Below are positions 3,359 through 20,798 of a DNA stretch of 22,346 nt, piece by piece; within the stretch, counting starts at the first letter, position 1, and each line of letters begins with the position of its first letter. The DNA is from a virus. The DNA is taken from the IMG/VR virus record IMGVR_UViG_3300030105_003465, positions 1 to 22,346 of that record, one strand, 5' to 3'. The position numbers and the translations under genes were made by a program. Below the pieces are notes generated by a model, which was not told the DNA's origin, did not search any database, and saw nothing but the letters and a program-made list of their open reading frames with translations.

Positions 3359-4525
3359 ATGAAGATCGCAATCATTTTTGGGGTGACAGGCCAAGACGGT
3401 AGTTATTTAGCTGACTTGCTACTTTCTAAAGATTATAAGGTAGTAGGAGTCGCGAGACGTAGTAGTGTTGACACGACGGGAAGAATCGTCAGTCAAATGA
3501 AACATCGAAACTTCTTGCTAGTCGAGGGAGACATTACCGACGGATTTTGTGTTGCAGACATTATTAACAAACATGAGCCAGACGAAGTATACAACCTTGC
3601 CGCTCAGTCGCACGTAGGCACCTCCTTTAAGCAGCCGACACTAACTTGGGACGTAACTGGTGCTGGATGTTTAAATATCCTAGAAGCTATCAGAGCATGC
3701 CCTAGAAGAGAAGATATTAAGTTCTATCAAGCATCTTCGAGTGAAATGTTTGGCAGGAACTATTCAGTATCCAAAACGAGCCCTAGCGTTGGTGATACTC
3801 TTGCTGGGAGTCCCCCTCCGTTAAAATATCAAGATGAAGACACTCCTTTTGTTCCTCAGTCACCTTATGCTATCGCTAAACTAGCAGCGCACCACCTTGT
3901 AAGAAACTATAGAGATAGCTATGGAATATTTGGATGTTGTGGTATATTGTTTAATCATGAGAGTGAACGAAGAGGAGAAAACTTCGTGACTAGAAAGATT
4001 ACTAAGTGGATAGCTAGATTCATAGCTTGGGAGCAAAACAACTCCACCGAGATGCCTTATAGCTGTAAGTTTACTATTAACGAAGAGCATATCGCTATGC
4101 CGAGAGAGCGACAGTTTATAGAAGCAATAGCGACTCCTAGCTTTCCTAAGCTTAGACTTGGAAATTTAGACGCGCAGAGAGATTGGGGTCACGCGAAAGA
4201 TTATGTGCGGGCTATGTGGCTTATGCTACAGGAAGATATTCCCGAAGATTATGTCGTAGCAACGGGAAGAACTCGTAGCGTTAGAGATTTCTTAGATATT
4301 GCCTTTGAGAGAGTTGGAATAAAAGATTGGAAGCATTTTGTATTTATTGATCCAGAGTTCTTCAGACCGGCAGAGGTTGATTACCTATTAGGTATTCCAG
4401 ATAAAGCAAGAAACCAACTTGGATGGCAACCTGAAATTTCGTTTCCAGAACTAGTACATGGTATGATCGATGGAGATTTAGATGAGGAACTACTCAGACC
4501 CCAGTTACAAGAAGTTCAGGACTGA
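3359..4525 (+). CDS. gmd: GDP-mannose 4,6-dehydratase
   Basis: A 388-aa short-chain dehydrogenase/reductase enzyme that converts GDP-mannose to GDP-4-keto-6-deoxymannose, the precursor of fucose, rhamnose and related sugars. Visible signatures are the NAD(P) loop GVTGQDGSYL (8-17), NLAAQSHVGTSF (79-90), catalytic SSSE (S127/E129), YAIAK (Y170, K174), HESERRGENFVTRKI (200-214) and RDWGHAKDYV (274-283). The ATG at 3359 is chosen over an upstream in-frame start because AAAGGAGG lies 8 nt before it and residue 1 then begins the Rossmann strand. Two stretches look inserted relative to bacterial GMD: about 134-160 and about 227-262. Phages carry this gene as auxiliary metabolism, probably to alter host surface polysaccharide or glycosylate virion or DNA components. 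The last 44 nt overlap the following HNH gene. Confidence 0.9.
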   Translation: MKIAIIFGVTGQDGSYLADLLLSKDYKVVGVARRSSVDTTGRIVSQMKHRNFLLVEGDITDGFCVADIINKHEPDEVYNLAAQSHVGTSFKQPTLTWDVTGAGCLNILEAIRACPRREDIKFYQASSSEMFGRNYSVSKTSPSVGDTLAGSPPPLKYQDEDTPFVPQSPYAIAKLAAHHLVRNYRDSYGIFGCCGILFNHESERRGENFVTRKITKWIARFIAWEQNNSTEMPYSCKFTINEEHIAMPRERQFIEAIATPSFPKLRLGNLDAQRDWGHAKDYVRAMWLMLQEDIPEDYVVATGRTRSVRDFLDIAFERVGIKDWKHFVFIDPEFFRPAEVDYLLGIPDKARNQLGWQPEISFPELVHGMIDGDLDEELLRPQLQEVQD

Positions 4526-12802: not shown

Positions 12803-13807
12803 ATGAATATGAAAGAACGTCCTTCCGATGAATTCATCGCATTGCTAAAACAATCCGGTAGTTCAGATAAAGCGGTGGCTATCGAAGCTCAGCGAGAAAT
12901 CGCAAAAGCTTTGGAAACGCCACTACGTAAAGGAGTTTTGTTCGGCGATGTCGTAACTTCAATTTATGAAGCTATGCCACTTGAACCGGGCGCAACCCCT
13001 GAATTCCCACTCGACCTTCTTGCTCCGGGTACGGAAAGCGAACATGTCGCTTATACCAATCCGGGTCACGGTCGTATTCCAGAACGTAGCGTCGAAGGCG
13101 ATTACGTAATGGTTAACACTTACGGCATTACTAGCTCGATTGATTTCTTGCTTAAATATGCTCGTGAGGCTAACTGGAACGTTATTGCTCGCGCAATGCA
13201 AGTTTTGGAATCATCTTTTGTTAAGAAAATCAACGACGATGGCTGGCATACACTGCTCGCCGCTGCTGTTGACAGAAATATTTTGGTCTATGATGCAGAT
13301 GCTGCGGTTGGTCAATTCACCAAACGTATCGTTTCGCTCATGAAGACAGTCATGAGACGTAATGGTGGCGGTAATAGCGTCACTGCTAACGGTCGCCTTA
13401 CTGACATGTACTTGTCTCCAGAAGCTATTGAAGATATCCGCAACTGGGGTGTTGATCAGCTTGACGAAGTTTCACGACGTGAAATTTACGAAGCAGCTGA
13501 CGACGGAGCTCCTTTGACAAGACTCTTCGGTGTTAACTTGCATGACTTATTCGAATTTGGTGACGGTCAAGAATATCAAAATTACTTCACGAGTGATCTT
13601 GGTGGTTCGTTGGCTAGCACAGATGTCGAACTCATCATTGGTCTTGACCAAGCAAGTAGCGATAGTTTCGTAATGCCTGTTAAAAAGGAAGTTGAAGTTT
13701 ATGAAGACGAAGCTCTTCACCGACATCAACGCCAAGGGTATTATGGCTGGGCTGAAATCGGCTTTGGTGTACTAGATAATAGAAGAGTTCTCGCTGGCTC
13801 GTTCTAA
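12803..13807 (+). CDS. Major capsid protein (HK97-fold candidate)
   Basis: A 334-aa protein at the expected position after protease, scaffold and decoration genes and directly before a strong terminator. Features fit an HK97-fold capsid protein: a helical N-arm (about 1-45), an E-loop-like region with PEFPLDLLAPG, a long spine-type helix (SFVKKINDDGWHTLLAAAV), an AVGQFTKRIVSLMKTVM helix with DMYLSPEAIEDIRNW following, and a beta-rich C-terminal half ending EIGFGVLDNRRVLAGSF. AAAGGAG lies 9 nt before the ATG; a second ATG two codons later is possible. About 415 copies would be needed for a T=7 shell, in line with the strong ribosome site and the terminator. Confidence 0.8.
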   Translation: MNMKERPSDEFIALLKQSGSSDKAVAIEAQREIAKALETPLRKGVLFGDVVTSIYEAMPLEPGATPEFPLDLLAPGTESEHVAYTNPGHGRIPERSVEGDYVMVNTYGITSSIDFLLKYAREANWNVIARAMQVLESSFVKKINDDGWHTLLAAAVDRNILVYDADAAVGQFTKRIVSLMKTVMRRNGGGNSVTANGRLTDMYLSPEAIEDIRNWGVDQLDEVSRREIYEAADDGAPLTRLFGVNLHDLFEFGDGQEYQNYFTSDLGGSLASTDVELIIGLDQASSDSFVMPVKKEVEVYEDEALHRHQRQGYYGWAEIGFGVLDNRRVLAGSF

Positions 13808-13833
13808 TTTAAGTACTTTACCTGAGTTTAAAG

Positions 13834-13869
13834 AACCGTCCTGTTGGCAACAATGGGGCGGTTTTTTTT
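13834..13869 (+). terminator. Intrinsic terminator after major capsid gene
   Basis: An 8-bp stem (AACCGTCC at 13834-13841 with GGGCGGTT at 13856-13863, one G-T wobble), an internal TGTT/AACA pairing in the loop, and an eight-T run at 13862-13869. It is the only clear rho-independent terminator I found on the plus strand and lies 27 nt after the capsid stop codon. Confidence 0.9.
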
Positions 13870-13875
13870 AGTTTT

Positions 13876-13883
13876 TGTGTATA
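13876..13883 (+). promoter_or_regulatory. Candidate late promoter element after the terminator
   Basis: Exact TGTGTATA beginning 7 nt after the terminator T-run and 47 nt before the ATG at 13923. Its position right behind a strong terminator, where transcription must restart for the downstream genes, is the best single argument that the motif is a promoter. Confidence 0.6.
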
Positions 13884-13922: not shown

Positions 13923-14690
13923 ATGGAACTGCTAATAAAGATCAATAGCACAGAAGGAGATGCCTCATATAAAGATGGGGATATAGTGCAAGCGTTCTCT
14001 TATGATCGCATACATTTAACCAACGCTCAGGTAATATGCAATGTAGATAACTTTCCTCTTGATAGTGTTACAGGCTTGAGGGTTAATGATTCATTGCTTA
14101 TGAAGTACCTAGAAAGAGCGTCTTTGTATAGATTTGAGCGAACTGGGGTTAATACAGTAAAGAAAATAAACCTGTTAACGCTAGGAGAAGAAACTCTTGG
14201 AGCAGAAAGTATAGATGTTACCGCGTTCCTTGCAAAAAGACTAAAAAGCCCTAGACATAAAGTGTTTGGGTCTTCTGGGTCAGAAATTTGGTATGGAGAT
14301 TCGAGAGAGTTAGATATAACTGCTCTATGGCATACCATAGAGGCTTATTCAGATAATCTAAAGTCTGAAAATAGCAATTGGCCATTTACAGAAATAGAGA
14401 AGAAGCATCTATTAGTATTGAATTCATCTGGCTTCAAGAACAATATAGTTACAGAAGTTTCCAGCGGCACCGCCAGCGATAGACAGTCGTCAGCTATTAG
14501 TGGAGAAGACATGGTTGCTAAGAGACAATGGCAGATTCCTTATTGGGATTTGTCTGAGGCTTTGGGAATTAATATTGACGACGTGAGAAATAAAGATACT
14601 GCAATAGATGGACGAAAACCAGTATCTGACAGGCCCCATATAGATGACTTAAATATAGATAAGGTTGTCGCGGGAATTATCACACTATAG
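13923..14690 (+). CDS. Unrecognised protein of the structural region
   Basis: A 255-aa soluble protein starting MELLIKINSTEGDASYKDGDIVQAF. The first 45 residues are beta-like with a GDIV turn; the middle carries WHTIEAYSDNLKSENSNWPFTEIEKKHLLVL (about 138-168) and the end is Asp-rich (NIDDVRNKDTAIDGRKP). There is no signal peptide, membrane segment or catalytic motif that I recognise. It follows the terminator and a candidate promoter, has GGGG about 7 nt before its ATG, and precedes tail or fibre genes, so a neck or head-completion role is possible from context only. Confidence 0.5.
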   Translation: MELLIKINSTEGDASYKDGDIVQAFSYDRIHLTNAQVICNVDNFPLDSVTGLRVNDSLLMKYLERASLYRFERTGVNTVKKINLLTLGEETLGAESIDVTAFLAKRLKSPRHKVFGSSGSEIWYGDSRELDITALWHTIEAYSDNLKSENSNWPFTEIEKKHLLVLNSSGFKNNIVTEVSSGTASDRQSSAISGEDMVAKRQWQIPYWDLSEALGINIDDVRNKDTAIDGRKPVSDRPHIDDLNIDKVVAGIITL

Positions 14691-14730
14691 ATTAAAACAT
14701 TTTATACATATTACTACAGGAGTATATATC

Positions 14731-15144
14731 ATGACCGCAATGTCAAACTATTTAGAAAATAAACTTATAGACCATATCTTGAGAGGAACGTCTTTTAGTC
14801 AGCCAAGCGTCTATATTGGACTAGTGGGTAAATATGATGCTGCTCAACTTGAGGCTGGAACCCTTACTCATGAACTAACTGGAGGTTCTTACGCTAGAAT
14901 TGGTAGTATTCGAGGTGATGCATATTGGAGTGCGGGCGGAACCAGTGGTCTTACCGACAATGAAAGCGCAATAACATTTGCTGCTGCAACTAATGAATGG
15001 GGTCATGTATCAGGTATTTTTATAGCAGATGCGGCTAGTACCGGAAACATTTTATTGTACGGATCATTGACTGCTACCAAGTTTGTTGAGAATACAGATC
15101 AGTTTATCGTTTCTGCGGGTGATTTTGATATTACCTTTGCTTAA
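14731..15144 (+). CDS. Small virion-associated protein, probably tail or fibre related
   Basis: A 137-aa protein beginning MTAMSNYLENKLIDHILRGTSF, followed by PSVYIGLVG and a GGSYARIG turn. The opening amphipathic helix followed by a Gly/Ser/Thr-rich beta domain recurs in small structural proteins of many tailed phages, usually next to fibre genes, as here. The frame is open from 14665, but the start at 14731 is preferred because AGGAG lies 8 nt before it and the extra residues would overlap the previous gene in a poor context. It has no cysteine and no transmembrane segment. A baseplate or fibre-attachment role is inferred from neighbours. Confidence 0.6.
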   Translation: MTAMSNYLENKLIDHILRGTSFSQPSVYIGLVGKYDAAQLEAGTLTHELTGGSYARIGSIRGDAYWSAGGTSGLTDNESAITFAAATNEWGHVSGIFIADAASTGNILLYGSLTATKFVENTDQFIVSAGDFDITFA

Positions 15145-15163: not shown

Positions 15164-17155
15164 ATGGCTTTAGTACTTAAAGATAGAGTAAAAGAAACTA
15201 CTACAACTACCGGAACGGGGACGATAACTCTCGCGGGAGCTGTTGTTGGATATCAGACTTTTTCCGTTATAGGGAATACCAACACAACCTATTATGTTAT
15301 AGAAGATGCTAATAATGCTTGGGAAGTAGGGATTGGGACATATACCCTGTCGGGAACTACACTCAGTAGAGACACGATCTTAGACAACAGTGCGGGAAAT
15401 ACAAGCGCTATTACTCTAAGCTCTGGAACGCACACTGTGTTTTGTGGTTATCCCGCCGGGAAATCGGTAGTTACCGAGAGCCCAACATTAGTAACGCCTG
15501 CGTTGGGAACGCCTTCGGCATTAGTTGCTACTAACGCAACCGGAACCGCTGCGAGCCTAACCGCTGGAACCGCCACCCTCGCCACCCTCGCAACGAGCGT
15601 TACGGTCACCGCCAACAATGGTACCAATGAAACCGTTTATCCACTCTTTGTAGACGGGGCAACGGGAACTCAAGGTACTGAGACCGATACGGGGCTAACG
15701 TATAACCCAGACAGTGGGCTTCTTACTTCTACGCTCTTTGCTGGTGCCTTGACAGGTAACGTTACGGGTAACGCTTCTGGTAGCTCCGGTAGTTGTACTG
15801 GCAACTCTGCTACGGTAACAAATGGTGTTTATACTAGCAACAACCTTTCGGTCATGGCTGCCACAACTTCTGCTCAATTAGCAGGAGTAATATCGGACGA
15901 AACAGGAAGTGGAGCATTAGTCTTTGCCACTAGTCCTACTTTAGTTACTCCAGTATTGGGAACGCCAGCATCTGGAACTCTAACAAACTGTACGTTTCCC
16001 ACTCTTAATCAAAGCACGTCCGGTACTGCTGCTATTGCGACCACTGTAACTGTAGCTGACGAGTCTGCCGATGCTACGTGTTTTCCTTTATTCGTTACTG
16101 CGGCAACAGGTAATGTGGGACCAAAGTCTGGCACCAATCTAACCTTCGCTTCTGATACAGGTATCTTAACAGCAACTGGATTCGCCGGGCCTCTTACGGG
16201 CAACGTTACAGGTAACGCCAGTGGTACTGCCGCAACCGTTACTGGTGGCACGCAGGCAGCTATTACATCTGCCGCAAATTTAGTCACGATTGGCACTGTT
16301 ACGTCTGGGACGTTATCGACCGGGACTGTATTAGCCGGTGTTACCGTTACAATGGGTAGTGATGCAGAGGGAGATATTTATTATCGTAATTCTGGTGGCG
16401 TACTTACCAGATTGGCGGCGAGTACCGATGGTCACGTATTAACTGCTACAGGTGCTGGATCAGCGCCCGCTTGGGAGGCCGCCACTGGCGGCACACCTAC
16501 GGTGATAACTGTGGCTGACGAATCTACCGACACAACATGTTTTCCGTTGTTCGTTACTGCTGCGACCGGCGATTTAGGTCCAAAATCTGGAAGCAATCTA
16601 ACGTTTAATTCCAATACGGGTGTTTTAACGGCAACAGGGTTTGCTGGGCCTATTACGGGCAACGTTACGGGCAACGCAAGCGGTACTGCTGCTACAGTTA
16701 CGACCGCCGCTCAATCAGCAATTACATCAGTCGGAACCCTAACTAGCGTGGTTGTTGCCGACGGAGGAAATATTGGTTCTGCTTCTGATACCGATGCTAT
16801 TTCTATCGCTTCTACCGGAGCTGTTACCTTTTCTAAAGCAACCAAACCCGCTCTCAAATCTAACTCAGATGCATCTACAGTTACGTTTGATGTAAATGAA
16901 GCAAACGTGCATACGGTTACTCTGGGTGCAAATAGAGTGTTCGCTATATCAAATGAAACAGCGGGTCAGAAATTTATGATTAGAATACTACAAGATGGAA
17001 CCGGAAGCAGAACCGTAACTTGGTTTAGTACAATTAAATGGGCTGGAGGCTCTGCTCCCACTTTGACTACCACTGCGAATAAAGCAGATGTAGTTGGGTT
17101 TCTTGTTACGGGAGCAGATACATATGATGGATTTGTCATAGGACAAAATATATAA
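15164..17155 (+). CDS. Tail fibre-like protein with repeated Thr/Gly modules
   Basis: A 663-aa, Thr/Gly/Ala/Val-rich protein with almost no charged residues. Residues 1-105 form an N-terminal domain (VKETTTTTGTGTITLAG, then YYVIEDANNAWEVGIGTY) common at the base of phage fibres. Three related modules follow at about 147-208, 294-358 and 447-512, each with FPLFV.AATG, a GLLTSTLFAG/ILTATGFAGP strand and TGNVTGNASG. SPTLVTP.LGTPS occurs twice (106-119 and 257-270). The C-terminus (about 555-663) is a separate beta domain ending in FVIGQNI. GGGAG lies 8 nt before the ATG. It is likely a trimeric fibre stalk exposed on the virion. The stop overlaps the next ATG. Confidence 0.75.
   Translation: MALVLKDRVKETTTTTGTGTITLAGAVVGYQTFSVIGNTNTTYYVIEDANNAWEVGIGTYTLSGTTLSRDTILDNSAGNTSAITLSSGTHTVFCGYPAGKSVVTESPTLVTPALGTPSALVATNATGTAASLTAGTATLATLATSVTVTANNGTNETVYPLFVDGATGTQGTETDTGLTYNPDSGLLTSTLFAGALTGNVTGNASGSSGSCTGNSATVTNGVYTSNNLSVMAATTSAQLAGVISDETGSGALVFATSPTLVTPVLGTPASGTLTNCTFPTLNQSTSGTAAIATTVTVADESADATCFPLFVTAATGNVGPKSGTNLTFASDTGILTATGFAGPLTGNVTGNASGTAATVTGGTQAAITSAANLVTIGTVTSGTLSTGTVLAGVTVTMGSDAEGDIYYRNSGGVLTRLAASTDGHVLTATGAGSAPAWEAATGGTPTVITVADESTDTTCFPLFVTAATGDLGPKSGSNLTFNSNTGVLTATGFAGPITGNVTGNASGTAATVTTAAQSAITSVGTLTSVVVADGGNIGSASDTDAISIASTGAVTFSKATKPALKSNSDASTVTFDVNEANVHTVTLGANRVFAISNETAGQKFMIRILQDGTGSRTVTWFSTIKWAGGSAPTLTTTANKADVVGFLVTGADTYDGFVIGQNI
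16043..16699 (+). repeat. Direct repeat of a fibre module within the fibre gene
   Basis: About 195 bp at 16043-16237 and 16502-16699 encode near-identical modules (VADES.D.TCFPLFVTAATG, then LTATGFAGP.TGNVTGNASGTAATVT), with a more diverged copy near 15600-15790. Between the two close copies lies a different segment (GDIYYRNSGGVLTRLA). Such repeats allow recombination that lengthens, shortens or swaps fibre modules. Confidence 0.75.
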
Positions 17156-17679
17156 TGGCACAAGTATACGCAAGACCAGACAGCGATGTTTCTGATGGGC
17201 GATGGGTTAATTCAGCCGGGAACAATACCAATCTTTATTCATATATAGATGAGTCTACTGTCAGTGATTCAGATTATATTCACGTTACTGATGAGTGGGG
17301 CTCTACTGATATCTGTACCGTTGGTCTTGGCGATGTCACAGACCCAAGCTCCGCGTCAGATCATAAGTTTACAGTTAGAGTTTTAGAGACGGGGGGGATG
17401 GACTCAATAATCCTTACTGTAACATTGCTACAGGGTTCTACCGCTATAAGAGCTGCTACTATTACTCCCAACACTGCGTATGCAACCGTTACGACAACAC
17501 TAACTGCTAGCGAAGCCAATGCTATTAGTGATTATACTGATCTTAGGTTAAAGATACAAGCTGTTGATCAGGGAGGTATGGGAACTCAAACCAAAGTGAG
17601 TTGGGCATACTTTGAGTGTCCGGAGGCTAGCTCGTCAGCCGTTAGTAATCCGGCATTTTTATTGTTTTTAGATCCATAA
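17155..17679 (+). CDS. Appendage-like beta-rich structural protein
   Basis: A 174-aa protein beginning MAQVYARPDSDVSDGRWVN, with N-terminal residues Y/S/D-rich (NLYSYIDESTVSDSDYIHV) followed by a single predicted beta-sandwich: FTVRVLETGGMDSIILTVTLL, AATITPNTAYATVTTTL, DLRLKIQAVD and KVSWAYFECPE. The alternating strands resemble fibronectin- or jelly-roll-like accessory domains of tail appendages. Its ATG shares the last base of the preceding fibre stop, so translation is coupled. It ends in a hydrophobic FLLFLDP tail. No enzymatic residues are seen. Function is inferred from the surrounding fibre genes. Confidence 0.55.
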   Translation: MAQVYARPDSDVSDGRWVNSAGNNTNLYSYIDESTVSDSDYIHVTDEWGSTDICTVGLGDVTDPSSASDHKFTVRVLETGGMDSIILTVTLLQGSTAIRAATITPNTAYATVTTTLTASEANAISDYTDLRLKIQAVDQGGMGTQTKVSWAYFECPEASSSAVSNPAFLLFLDP

Positions 17680-17683
17680 ACAT

Positions 17684-17691
17684 TGTGTATA
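17684..17691 (+). promoter_or_regulatory. Candidate late promoter element upstream of repeat protein
   Basis: Exact TGTGTATA in the 62-nt gap after the appendage gene, 58 nt before the ATG at 17742. It is followed by TAATATTAAG; an AAAAAGGGG ribosome site lies further down. The gap has no terminator-like hairpin. Confidence 0.55.
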
Positions 17692-17741
17692 TAATATTAA
17701 GCAGTTGGTAATATCTTAACTATGTAAAAAAGGGGTTATAA

Positions 17742-18842
17742 ATGAGTTTTTCAGCAACCCCATTTTCATCCGTACCTTTCTCGTCTGAGCCAGCGGGTAG
17801 CATAACAACTGTTTCAGGAGCCGCTAGTATTTCGGCATCAGTCGCGGTTTCTGCTGCTGGACTGATTAAGAAGGGTGCAGCTACATCTGTTTCAGCTTCT
17901 ATCACTGTTGCTGCTGCTGGGTTAGTTAAGAAAAGCGCCGCTGCATCTGTTTCAGGTTCCGTCTCAATCTCCGTTACTGCAAGTGGGTCAATGAGCGCGG
18001 CGACATCTATTTCAGCCTCTATAGCGGTTTCCGCTGCTGGGCTAATTAAGAAAAACGCAGCGACATCTATTTCAGGGTCTATCGCAGTTTCCGCCGCTGG
18101 GCTAATTAAGAAGAATGCGGCAGTATCTATTTCAGGTTCTATTACGACTTCCGTTGCTGGGGTAATCGGGAAAAAAGCGGCTACATCTATCTCAGGCTCT
18201 ATCGCAGTTTCTGCTGCGGGAACAGTACCAAGAACCGCAGCGGCATCTATTGCGGCGTCTATAGCAGTTTCCGCTGCTGCACTAATTGAGAAAAACGCAG
18301 CTACCTCTGTTTCGGGGTCTATTGCGGTTTCCGTCGCTTCGGAAGTCAAGAAACACGCGGCGACATCTGTTTCAGCTTCCATCTCAGTTTCCGCCTCCGG
18401 AAAAGTCCCGATACGCGGAGCTACATCTATCTCTGGTTCGGTCTCGGTGTCCGTTACCGCTAAGGCTAGGAATAATGCTGCGACATCTATGGCGGCAACA
18501 ATTTCAGTTACCAAAGCAGAAGCAATGACTAAGAAGGCTGGGTTTGTTTCTATATTGGGTTCAATTTCCACCGTAGCGTCGGGAACTGTCAAAAGGTTTG
18601 CGTCTACTAGCATGAATGCTAGTGTAACCATATCTGCTGATGGGATAGTGTCTAGCGACGTAGAGGGTGCTGTTTCATTGCTTACTAGTGCTAGTGTTTC
18701 AGTTGCTGGAAAAATAAGTCAATTCCCAGATGTCGAAGAGTTTATTGTGTATATCAATACGGACATAGGCAAGATTGCGTCTATTAATACAGCAAAAAAT
18801 GTGGACGCTAGCATAGAAACATTAAGAATATTTGAGGGGTAA
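17742..18842 (+). CDS. Fibre-like protein built of about fifteen 20-aa repeats
   Basis: A 366-aa protein in which residues about 25-327 consist of about fifteen repeats near 20 residues, consensus AATSISGSIAVSAAGLIKKN. Ser/Ala/Ile/Val alternate in two short strands separated by a turn and closed by Lys-rich corners (KK, PR, EK). Such a regular small-residue pattern predicts a stacked beta-solenoid or extended fibrous rod. The N-terminus (FSATPFSSVPFSSEPAG) is Phe/Ser/Pro-rich, while the C-terminus (EFIVYINTDIGKIASINTAKNVDASIETLRIFEG) is non-repetitive and more normal, and may anchor or trimerise it. AAGGGG lies before the ATG and a candidate promoter 58 nt upstream. Probably a host-contact fibre or spike; no similarity I can name. 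The reverse strand is also open for 303 codons, a by-product of the repeat. Confidence 0.65.
   Translation: MSFSATPFSSVPFSSEPAGSITTVSGAASISASVAVSAAGLIKKGAATSVSASITVAAAGLVKKSAAASVSGSVSISVTASGSMSAATSISASIAVSAAGLIKKNAATSISGSIAVSAAGLIKKNAAVSISGSITTSVAGVIGKKAATSISGSIAVSAAGTVPRTAAASIAASIAVSAAALIEKNAATSVSGSIAVSVASEVKKHAATSVSASISVSASGKVPIRGATSISGSVSVSVTAKARNNAATSMAATISVTKAEAMTKKAGFVSILGSISTVASGTVKRFASTSMNASVTISADGIVSSDVEGAVSLLTSASVSVAGKISQFPDVEEFIVYINTDIGKIASINTAKNVDASIETLRIFEG
17814..18722 (+). repeat. About fifteen tandem 60-bp repeats
   Basis: Sixty-bp units, each coding for the 20-residue motif with an AATSIS..SI.VS..G core. Units 4 and 5 are the most alike; the last three lengthen by one to two codons and diverge in composition. 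Codon choice within the block is GC-richer than in the flanking genes. Copy number could change by slippage or recombination. Confidence 0.85.
18746..18753 (+). promoter_or_regulatory. Intragenic copy of TGTGTATA
   Basis: A sixth exact copy of the octamer, inside the 3' end of the repeat-protein gene where it codes for part of FIVYIN, 99 nt before the ATG at 18845. It could supply an extra promoter for the BppU-like gene, but lying within coding sequence it may be chance. Confidence 0.25.
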
Positions 18843-18844
18843 CT

Positions 18845-19153
18845 ATGGCATCTAACGAAATACATGTTAACGATATAGGGACTACGTTCCAACTAACCTT
18901 CAAAGACGATGGTTCTGTTGTTAATATTAGTTCTGCCACTATCACTATAATGCTTCAGGGGCCTGACGATGTAACTCTATCGAAAACCGGAGTTCTTGTT
19001 AATACTGGTGCTGATGGAAAAGCTAAATATGTAACAGTCTCTGGAGACTTATCTTCCCCGGGAACTTGGAAGCTTCAGGGAAAACTCGTGATTGGAGCCA
19101 CTACCTACTCTAGTGATATCCATACTTTTATGGTTTATAAGAATTTAGTATAA
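18845..19153 (+). CDS. Small BppU-like upper-baseplate/fibre domain protein
   Basis: A 102-aa protein with the look of a single immunoglobulin-like domain: GTTFQLTFKDDGSVVNIS, ATITIMLQGPDDVTLSKTG, GKAKYVTVSGDLSSPGTWKLQGKL, and a final TYSSDIHTFMV strand. The pattern 'F.DDGS.VnlS.at...l..PdG...tk....dG..y....GdL...G.W..q' is characteristic of the N-terminal domain of phage BppU-family baseplate/fibre proteins. It stands alone here rather than fused to a fibre. GAGGGG precedes the ATG, which follows the repeat-protein gene by 2 nt, and it is likely a connector between baseplate and fibre proteins. Confidence 0.55.
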   Translation: MASNEIHVNDIGTTFQLTFKDDGSVVNISSATITIMLQGPDDVTLSKTGVLVNTGADGKAKYVTVSGDLSSPGTWKLQGKLVIGATTYSSDIHTFMVYKNLV

Positions 19154-19164
19154 GGGAATAAGAC

Positions 19165-20229
19165 ATGGCCAACGTAGCAAAAACAATAGGCACAGCAGTA
19201 GGGCGTGACTACAGTACTATATCTGCGTGGGAGTCTGATTTATCCGATACTAGTATTTATGCATCGCAAGACACAGCAGAAGGTGATTGTTATGACGATA
19301 GTGAATTTAGTGAGAATGTATCTATTAATGGGGCGTTTGACCTTTTGAAGATAACCTTAACTGCTGATCCATCTGCTAGACATGACGGGACAATTGGGTC
19401 GGGTGCTACTGTTAAGCCAGCGGGTCCAACTTCTTATACTATTAATGTCCATGAAAGCAATACAGTTATATCTTGGTTAGATATAAATGGAAATGATAAC
19501 GGTGCATATGGGGTGAAGTTTAACACAGGACTTTCTGATGTTTATCTTCAGAACTGTCTAGTGCATAACTTCGGAAGCACGTCCGATGTTTCTACAGACG
19601 TTTACGTAATTAGAAACCTTAGCGCTGCAAATTTCACTAATAACTTTATTTTCAACAATACTAGTGGATCGAGTGCAGATCTTTTTGTTCATCATTCTTC
19701 TACTTCTGTAACATCTTATATATATAACAATACATATTATTATAATAATGTGGGGGATAATTCCAGTAATTCTGGGTATATATTTTACGGCACTCTAAAT
19801 AACGCAGGGTCTGTAGCTAAGAATATAATTATATTAAGATACGATAATAACTACTGGAACACCAAGCACGCTAGCGCTACTTTAGATTATTGGGGCGCGG
19901 TTGGATCTATAGCTGGAGTGAGTAACGTCACAACAGATACATATAGCAACGCCTTTGTTGGTACATCTACTAGCGATCCTGATTTACACCTAAAGACAGG
20001 CTGTAACTTTATAGGAACCGCTGTAGATCTAGGAACATCGCCAATTGACGTAGAAATAGACATTAACGGCAACAATAGAGATTCTGCTGGAGTTACGTGG
20101 GACTTGGGTGCTCATGAATTCGAGCTACCTATCGCAGCGACAGGCAAAAAGATAAAGCCAAATACAAGGTTTCATCTATTTCATGGTACAGAGGGTTTCG
20201 AGGCTTTTTCTACCCACTTTAATTTTTAA
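19165..20229 (+). CDS. Beta-helix tail spike-like protein
   Basis: A 354-aa protein starting MANVAKTIGTAVGRDYSTISAWESDL, the usual opening of pectate-lyase-like phage proteins. The body has repeating Asn/Ser/Thr-rich turns, each followed by a short strand: YTINVHESNTVISWLDINGN, GVKFNTGLSDVYLQNCLVHN, NFTNNFIFNNTSGSS, YIYNNTYYYNNVG, NIIILRYDNNYW. These are rungs of a right-handed parallel beta-helix. It continues into a DPDLHLKTGCNFIGTAVDLG block and ends GAHEFEL, both common at the end of such helices, then a short tail HLFHGTEGFEAF. No glycosidase catalytic residues can be assigned. Likely a receptor-binding or polysaccharide-binding spike. GGGAA precedes the start. Confidence 0.7.
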   Translation: MANVAKTIGTAVGRDYSTISAWESDLSDTSIYASQDTAEGDCYDDSEFSENVSINGAFDLLKITLTADPSARHDGTIGSGATVKPAGPTSYTINVHESNTVISWLDINGNDNGAYGVKFNTGLSDVYLQNCLVHNFGSTSDVSTDVYVIRNLSAANFTNNFIFNNTSGSSADLFVHHSSTSVTSYIYNNTYYYNNVGDNSSNSGYIFYGTLNNAGSVAKNIIILRYDNNYWNTKHASATLDYWGAVGSIAGVSNVTTDTYSNAFVGTSTSDPDLHLKTGCNFIGTAVDLGTSPIDVEIDINGNNRDSAGVTWDLGAHEFELPIAATGKKIKPNTRFHLFHGTEGFEAFSTHFNF

Positions 20230-20248
20230 TATTATTTATAGAACATTT

Positions 20249-20256
20249 TGTGTATA
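20249..20256 (+). promoter_or_regulatory. Candidate late promoter element upstream of connector block
   Basis: Exact TGTGTATA in the 65-nt gap after the spike gene, 46 nt before the ATG at 20295, preceded by TT like the copy at 13876. An AAAGGAAA ribosome site follows. It would drive the neck-protein genes to the end of the window. Confidence 0.55.
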
Positions 20257-20294: not shown

Positions 20295-20798
20295 ATGGCT
20301 TGGACAACAGATTTAGTTCTTTTTGTCAGAACGCTGATTGGTGACTTAGATAGTTCCAAATATGCCGATTCTAGACTAGAGCAGATTATAGCTGTAGCCG
20401 CCTATAAGGTATATGATCAAGCTGATTTTAATTATACGTATGTAGTAGATATCGCGACAAAAGAAATTACCCCAGATCCAGTAGATAACAAAGACACAGA
20501 CTTTACTGTGCTTACAGCTTATCAGGCTGCGTGTATTATTCTAGGTAGTGAAGTAAAGACAGAGTCGTCAAATTCGCTATCCTTAAGAGATGGCCCTTCT
20601 GCTATTGATCTTAGAGGTGTTGCGACAGCTCTCAATGGTTTATATCAAGATCTCTCTGCAAAGTTTGAAGAATTAATGCAGAACTACAAAACAACTAATA
20701 GTATACATGGTCAAGCAATTCTCGGTCCTTATAGTCCCGGAAGTGCTGGATTTAACAACGGATACGATGCCCGATCAGGCTCTGTATTTGGAAACTAA
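20295..20798 (+). CDS. Head-tail connector-like protein
   Basis: A 167-aa, mainly helical protein with the opening typical of phage connector adaptors: DLVLFVRTLIGDLDSSKYADSRLEQIIAVAAYKVYDQADF. A middle beta turn (YVVDIATKEITPDP) and a second helical half follow (FTVLTAYQAACIILGSEVKTES, DLRGVATALNGLYQDLSAKFEELMQNYK), then a Gly/Ser-rich tail. This 'L..vR.lIgD.d...YsD..L...I..Aa..v' layout belongs to the gp6-like connector group that seals the portal after packaging. No catalytic motif is present. It starts a short block that ends with other neck candidates, which supports the assignment. Confidence 0.65.
   Translation: MAWTTDLVLFVRTLIGDLDSSKYADSRLEQIIAVAAYKVYDQADFNYTYVVDIATKEITPDPVDNKDTDFTVLTAYQAACIILGSEVKTESSNSLSLRDGPSAIDLRGVATALNGLYQDLSAKFEELMQNYKTTNSIHGQAILGPYSPGSAGFNNGYDARSGSVFGN

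Follow-up and report, generated by a model that had tools for sequence, protein, structure and literature searches.

The 22,346-base IMG/VR fragment studied here (the whole of which is called the window below) encodes a protein made for the most part of fifteen 20-residue units, and this repeat rod is both real and part of a family whose members sit at one genomic locus and differ in length by whole units. The family offers a natural series in which a single protein carries from 0 to 25 near-equal modules at one genomic place, which allows a direct test of repeat number against fibre length and phage adsorption, and its unit adds a new repeat to those available to fibre designers and for predicting structures. 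To the reading that the rod forms the shaft of a fibre or decoration protein on the virion surface of a long-tailed siphophage, acting with a partner that resembles the N-terminal domain of BppU and having its length set by its units, we give about an even chance. More surprising than the rod itself is a candidate late promoter that appears to be embedded in its C-terminal codons.

Anatomy of the rod gene

The gene and its parts, all on the plus strand, are:

17742..18842, +, rod gene, 366 aa and stop, ATG start (open reading frame; homologues at the same locus in relatives)
17742..17816, +, N-terminal leader MSFSATPFSSVPFSS..., family pattern M[ST][FY]SGxP[FY]SSxP[FY] (family alignments)
17817..18725, +, array covering residues 26-328, fifteen 20-aa units (60 nt each) (profile segmentation, self-identity)
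18741..18839, +, C-terminal tail FIVYINTDIGKIASINTAKNVDASIETLRIFEG, about three 10-aa units (tail lengths in the family)

An SD-like sequence, aaggggtt, lies 5' of the reading frame. Profile segmentation assigns 83% of the protein to the 15 units, spaced by 20 residues in 12 of 14 cases, by 21 in one and by 22 in another; the original prediction, made from the letters of the window, had named exactly this reading frame, about fifteen units of this length and a coverage above 80%. At a lag of 20 residues the self-identity reaches 0.41, whereas 500 shuffles give 0.135 (maximum 0.184), which excludes a chance origin of the repeat. The units share the consensus AATSISASIAVSAAGLIKKN, to which their identity runs from 0.30 to 1.00, and their pairwise identity averages 0.45 (range 0.15-0.95), so that the term 'near-perfect', which had been applied to all of them, suits only some. 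The 'lysine corners' proposed at the same time are a fair description, Lys or Arg standing at unit position 18 or 19 in 11 of the 15 units, and the supposed alternation of small and hydrophobic residues is real: among 178 family units, Ile, Leu, Val or Met occupies position 5 in 96% and position 11 in 89%, positions 4, 6, 8, 10 and 12 are mostly Ser or Thr, and position 15 is Gly in 60%. Where adjacent units carry equal residues their synonymous codons agree in 48% of cases, as opposed to 31% expected from codon usage, so the array grew by duplication of units that then diverged.

Family alignments show that the leader and the FIVYIN-bearing C-terminal tail are common to rod family members. 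The tail has a repeat of its own, which, like two features described below (the gene that always adjoins the rod and the DNA motif inside it), the original prediction had missed: tail lengths in the family are 32, 35 (L031 and L035), 52 or 102 residues, of which 32, 52 and 102 lie multiples of 10 apart, and the roughly three 10-residue units of the window become 5 or 10 in some relatives. This period, half that of the rod, is in line with two strand-and-turn elements in each 20-residue unit. Between the window and L001 the dN/dS of the array is 0.32, and across 30 orthologous unit pairs the hydrophobic class at positions 5 and 11 is always kept and positions 4, 8, 12 and 15 are unchanged; together, these constraints look like the pattern of a folded repeat under selection. 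An antisense reading frame at 17720-18631 (303 aa) was rejected as an artefact of the sense frame, and its low dN/dS is uninformative because the two frames share their third codon positions.

An optional gene that varies by whole units

Relatives were gathered by scanning viral contigs with the rod protein, by family alignments and through neighbouring genes, and the members found come mostly from one broad virus lineage. In these related contigs the family occupies one fixed place, with 6 units (L002, L005), 9 (L009, L010), 15 (the window, L001, L034), 16 (L011), 19 (L031), 20 (L050), 23 (L035) or 25 (L037), and with none at all in L020, whose 84-residue protein consists of the rod ends only. 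That repeat number sets length had been predicted, and the comparison of relatives agrees, lengths varying in 20-residue steps: the rods of L002 and of the window and L001 are exactly 180 residues apart, and L031 matches L035 unit for unit except for L035 units 6-9, which it lacks. Some duplications are recent, since units 2 and 3 of L050 are identical over all 60 nucleotides and units 5 and 6 of L037 are 95% identical at the nucleotide level. Whole units would be gained and lost through recombination between similar 60-bp units.

When 17 related records were searched with a profile of five units, 8 proved to have a single rod gene and the other nine to have none; the records are fragments, so that absence does not equal loss. 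With eight records that carry it and nine that do not, the gene is optional in this virus group and confined to a single locus. In one of the nine, a 145-kb contig that has no cassette, the capsid and connector genes are direct neighbours. Pfam, PHROGs, NCBIfam and PDB sequences offer no match to the rod protein, and the earlier statement that no known fibre family could be assigned holds. A protein search of 50,697 phage records also found no match, a weak negative since BLAST masks low-complexity sequence, and a DNA search with a relative found none either. A scan of bacterial and archaeal genomes returned 43 pattern matches, none of them a relative.

Predicted fold and comparison with known repeat fibres

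AlphaFold2 modelled the full-length rod, with ten relatives in the alignment, at a pLDDT of 44.7, and a stretch of five units, with 64 rows checked to be in phase, at 65.4, the five models of the latter disagreeing (65 down to 24.7). Both runs place two strands in each unit at the same unit positions; neither run yielded a confident fold or a confident prediction of disorder, and the beta-solenoid of the original prediction is unproven. AlphaFold2 produces confident beta-solenoids even for random perfect repeats (PMC11795689), and given this bias its weak score on the rod is a warning: a simple single-chain solenoid is not supported, and an intertwined oligomer is possible. The top BFVD matches, A0A6J5SI72 (E 0.008) and A0A516LWH2 (E 0.08), came from a low-confidence model and are not relied on. 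A protein of Mycobacterium phage Myrna ranked in BFVD; the rod profile finds no match in the Myrna genome, and Myrna was discarded as a relative.

The closest solved structure to the low-confidence five-unit model is the CsgA fibril (VIA-align Z 14.3, 98 residues, rmsd 8.0; Foldseek E 0.91, prob 0.30), a match that is weak because the rmsd is large and the pLDDT is 65. The beta-solenoid repeats of CsgA, of about 23 residues, share with the rod two strands per repeat and a variable repeat number, but CsgA is a secreted amyloid, a setting that the rod does not have. The Q-x10-Q ladder of curlin does not appear either, as X6QX10Q occurs 0 times in all 13 rod members tested and NX5Q once in one; nor was the curlin profile of Pfam matched, since the window rod matched no Pfam family at E <= 0.1 and relatives gave only weak, unrelated matches at E <= 1. 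The triple beta-spirals of adenovirus fibre and reovirus sigma1 are trimeric repeat rods of similar repeat length in which repeat count likewise sets length, and their rule calls for hydrophobic residues at c, e, g, k and m and Gly or Pro at j (PMC3150272). The rod does not follow this rule: its best phase is 42% hydrophobic at these positions with Gly or Pro at j in 1% of units, and the phases that do have Gly or Pro at j are 11-13% hydrophobic.

The fibre cassette and its surroundings

Gene order runs from the capsid gene through a terminator hairpin, fibre genes, the rod, its partner and, in one clade, a 354-aa protein to genes of the connector and head-completion region. Besides the rod, the window holds:

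12803..13807, +, major capsid protein (PHROG 2522, E 1.4e-5; 79-95% identical in relatives)
13830..13867, +, terminator-like hairpin, 17 pairs and a T run, 3' of the capsid gene (also in relatives)
14725..15144, +, gp80-like fibre protein (PF23140, E 1.9e-29; 139-aa gene in relatives)
15164..17155, +, tail-fibre-like protein, 663 aa, repetitive (PHROG 9017 tail fiber, E 1.8e-10)
17155..17679, +, cassette protein of 174 aa (conserved among the relatives)
18845..19153, +, partner of the rod, 102 aa, BppU-N-related (PF10651 and PHROG matches in homologues; adjacency)
19165..20229, +, 354-aa protein that accompanies the rod in one clade (no family match)
20295..20798, +, 167-aa protein of the putative connector/head-completion region, end of the cassette (in all syntenic loci; function judged from position)

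The open reading frame list starts the gp80-like gene at a TTG at 14665 rather than at 14725. The tail-fibre-like protein has repeats of its own, SPTLVTPALGTPSA and GPLTGNVTGNASGTA, and is mosaic between relatives; the 354-aa protein has no Pfam or PHROG family match. In every rod-bearing locus in which the region is covered, the partner starts 2-9 nt past the rod stop. Of 14 partner homologues, 7 match PF10651, the BppU N-terminal family (best E 1.6e-4), and 5 a minor tail protein PHROG, and the window's own copy has no match to PF10651. The likeness of the partner family to BppU is thus weak and repeated, and the partner differs from BppU in being an N-terminal-type domain alone, of 102 residues, and in lying in the head region rather than in a baseplate operon.

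The rod gene is encoded among virion genes, in a slot that in other relatives holds LamG-like lectin genes, a 42-aa-repeat protein or nothing. The repeat protein, with a 42-residue period (VATAIGSSASGTNSMSIPN), is found in L024 (8395-8928) and L025 (8398-8928), and tandem LamG/concanavalin A-like lectin genes in L038 (6847-8956), L013 and L014, PF13385 having been tested on one of the L038 genes. In L001 (2590-5898) and L005 (2595-5903), but not in the window, four genes are inserted between the fibre cassette and the rod; by eye their products resemble a phosphoribosyltransferase, a sulfotransferase, a polysaccharide pyruvyl transferase and a radical SAM protein. Downstream in a 105.8-kb relative lies a tail module that includes a tape measure of 3,555 aa and several proteins of more than 1,000 aa; as this module is present and no sheath gene was recognised in that relative, the virus is likely a long-tailed siphophage.

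Elsewhere in the window, positions 91-1131 on the minus strand encode a protein with the look of an HNH endonuclease and about ten 15-aa repeats (KAYREENKEAIAKK), and a GDP-mannose 4,6-dehydratase gene (3359-4525; PF16363, E 2e-114) adjoins packaging genes. There is no Rfam match in the window and no tRNA in ten related loci.

What the rod may do

We infer virion membership, fold, position and an adhesive role for the rod protein as follows. Each 20-residue unit would form two beta-strands with turns, its small and aliphatic residues facing inward, Ser and Thr outward and Lys or Arg at a turn; the units would stack as a rod whose length is fixed by their number, between the leader and the C-terminal 10-residue units as conserved ends of the shaft. 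The BppU-N-like partner would act with the rod, probably as anchor or adaptor, the two belonging to an exchangeable adhesin cassette between capsid and head-completion genes. Some phages are known to have head fibres or Ig-like decoration proteins that help them attach (PMC7602432, PMC12796354): phi29 gp8.5, the capsid fibres of phage 7-7-1 and Hoc are, like the rod, optional surface proteins whose genes lie in or near the head genes, and they have Ig-like parts and a proposed attachment role (PMC7602432, PMC12796354). The rod has no sequence match to any of the three; gp8.5 itself has a beta-tulip base that carries a helical supercoil, and attachment of the rod to the head is putative.

A head or neck position is the more likely one for the rod, as the adhesin slot adjoins the capsid gene and is set at a distance from the tail module, although gene position is not virion position, and no capsid-binding or trimerisation domain was recognised in the protein. 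The BppU and minor tail protein matches of the partner point equally to the tail, and the resemblance to BppU gives some weight to an improbable alternative in which the same rod is the shaft of a tail-tip or side-tail fibre and only the attachment site differs. The upstream neighbours, which resemble tail fibres, fit such a shaft; against it, the cassette lies directly 3' of the capsid gene, and connector genes separate it from the tail module of tube, tape measure and large tail genes. Slightly less probable still is that the rod is a mostly disordered, Ser/Ala-rich spacer between folded ends, of which the length matters and the fold does not.

Such a spacer would suit the low AlphaFold2 confidence, the composition and the existence of L020 without any units; that a program biased toward solenoids gave no confident structure also counts against the surface-shaft reading. 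We nevertheless think a spacer unlikely, since a strict 20-residue phase is kept through arrays that are only about 35% identical, the hydrophobic positions 5 and 11 hold their class in orthologous pairs, and the predicted strands recur at the same unit positions. A last alternative makes the rod a chaperone, an internal head protein or another cassette product that never reaches the surface; this is very improbable, as the slot is common to adhesin-type genes and the large, free variation in length is better suited to a surface shaft.

A DNA motif embedded in the rod gene

Aligning upstream regions brought out the motif TTGTGTATA; a sigma-70-type promoter scan gave no excess over shuffles (15 vs 14.1). 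The window has four copies, all on the plus strand, against 0.2 expected, and no shuffle had four:

13875..13883, +, candidate late promoter between the capsid terminator and the fibre cassette
17683..17691, +, candidate late promoter 50 nt 5' of the rod gene
18745..18753, +, within the FIVYIN codons, candidate embedded late promoter for the gene at 18845 and those beyond
20248..20256, +, candidate late promoter 38 nt 5' of the connector-region gene

The core TGTGTAT occurs eight times on the plus strand and never on the minus strand (1.3 expected), seven of the eight copies lying 20-92 nt ahead of a gene start, and near variants with this core precede 1816, 8620 and 10773. In 18 related sequences, about 318 kb that partly overlap, TTGTGTATA is found 62 times on the plus strand and 3 times on the minus strand. 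Copies outside rod genes lie between genes, in most cases 36-95 nt ahead of a capsid-cassette, rod, connector, tail-tube or tape-measure gene, and often immediately 3' of a terminator hairpin.

Every rod gene has one internal copy, within the FIVYIN codons. These read TTT ATT GTG TAT AT[T/C] AAT in all nine divergent members compared, the only invariant codon run in the family, although the nine share ancestry and the invariance has no simple probability. The family uses all four Val codons, GTG most rarely (38 of 323), and in the rest of the gene the codons of conserved Ser, Pro and Gly residues vary without restraint; selection on the protein would not by itself freeze the third positions of FIVYIN. 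In L020, L031, L034, L035, L037 and L050 the rod-internal copy is the sole exact one from the upstream cassette to the tail tube gene, and in the rod-less L024, L025, L027 and L029 a copy lies directly 5' of the connector gene. For these reasons we propose the internal copy as a candidate late promoter that would serve both the partner and the genes of head completion, a second layer of function that DNA conservation suggests for the FIVYIN codons.

In large phages of the T4 type, phage sigma factors read a short -10-like box before virion genes. TTGTGTATA is likewise short, -10-like, strand-specific and ahead of virion genes; it differs from the T4-type box in sequence (TTTTGTGTATATA) and in having one copy within frozen codons. 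A possible reader is a sigma-70 region 2-like protein encoded at 2060-2563 (E 4e-5, slightly below Pfam's cut-off). A signal for the processing or translation of RNA would be expected to show the same strand bias and the same distance of 36-95 nt from gene starts; we judge it the improbable alternative in view of the frequent position straight after a terminator hairpin, the likeness to a -10 element and the presence of the sigma-like gene.

If the motif is a promoter, a dispensable, recombining gene would owe its fixed place to the control element that it carries for essential neighbours. A bolder reading, which we consider doubtful, joins both layers: the units would be a fibre-shaft fold unseen in solved structures, with intertwined chains, which would account for the want of a confident single-chain model, and a length tuned by recombination, while the C-terminal codons double as late promoter. 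An optional adhesin would then be tied to an essential operon, and the embedded promoter would explain why the gene end is kept in the relative that has no 20-residue units.

A scan of viral contigs with the embedded 18-mer gave 22 matches, of which 14 are known family genes and 8 have no rod-like reading frame. In Bacillus phage Slash (L080), TTGTGTATA stands at 12869-12877, immediately 3' of an annotated terminator and ahead of a gene for a minor tail protein; this may be the element of the rod loci recurring in a distant phage, or it may be chance.
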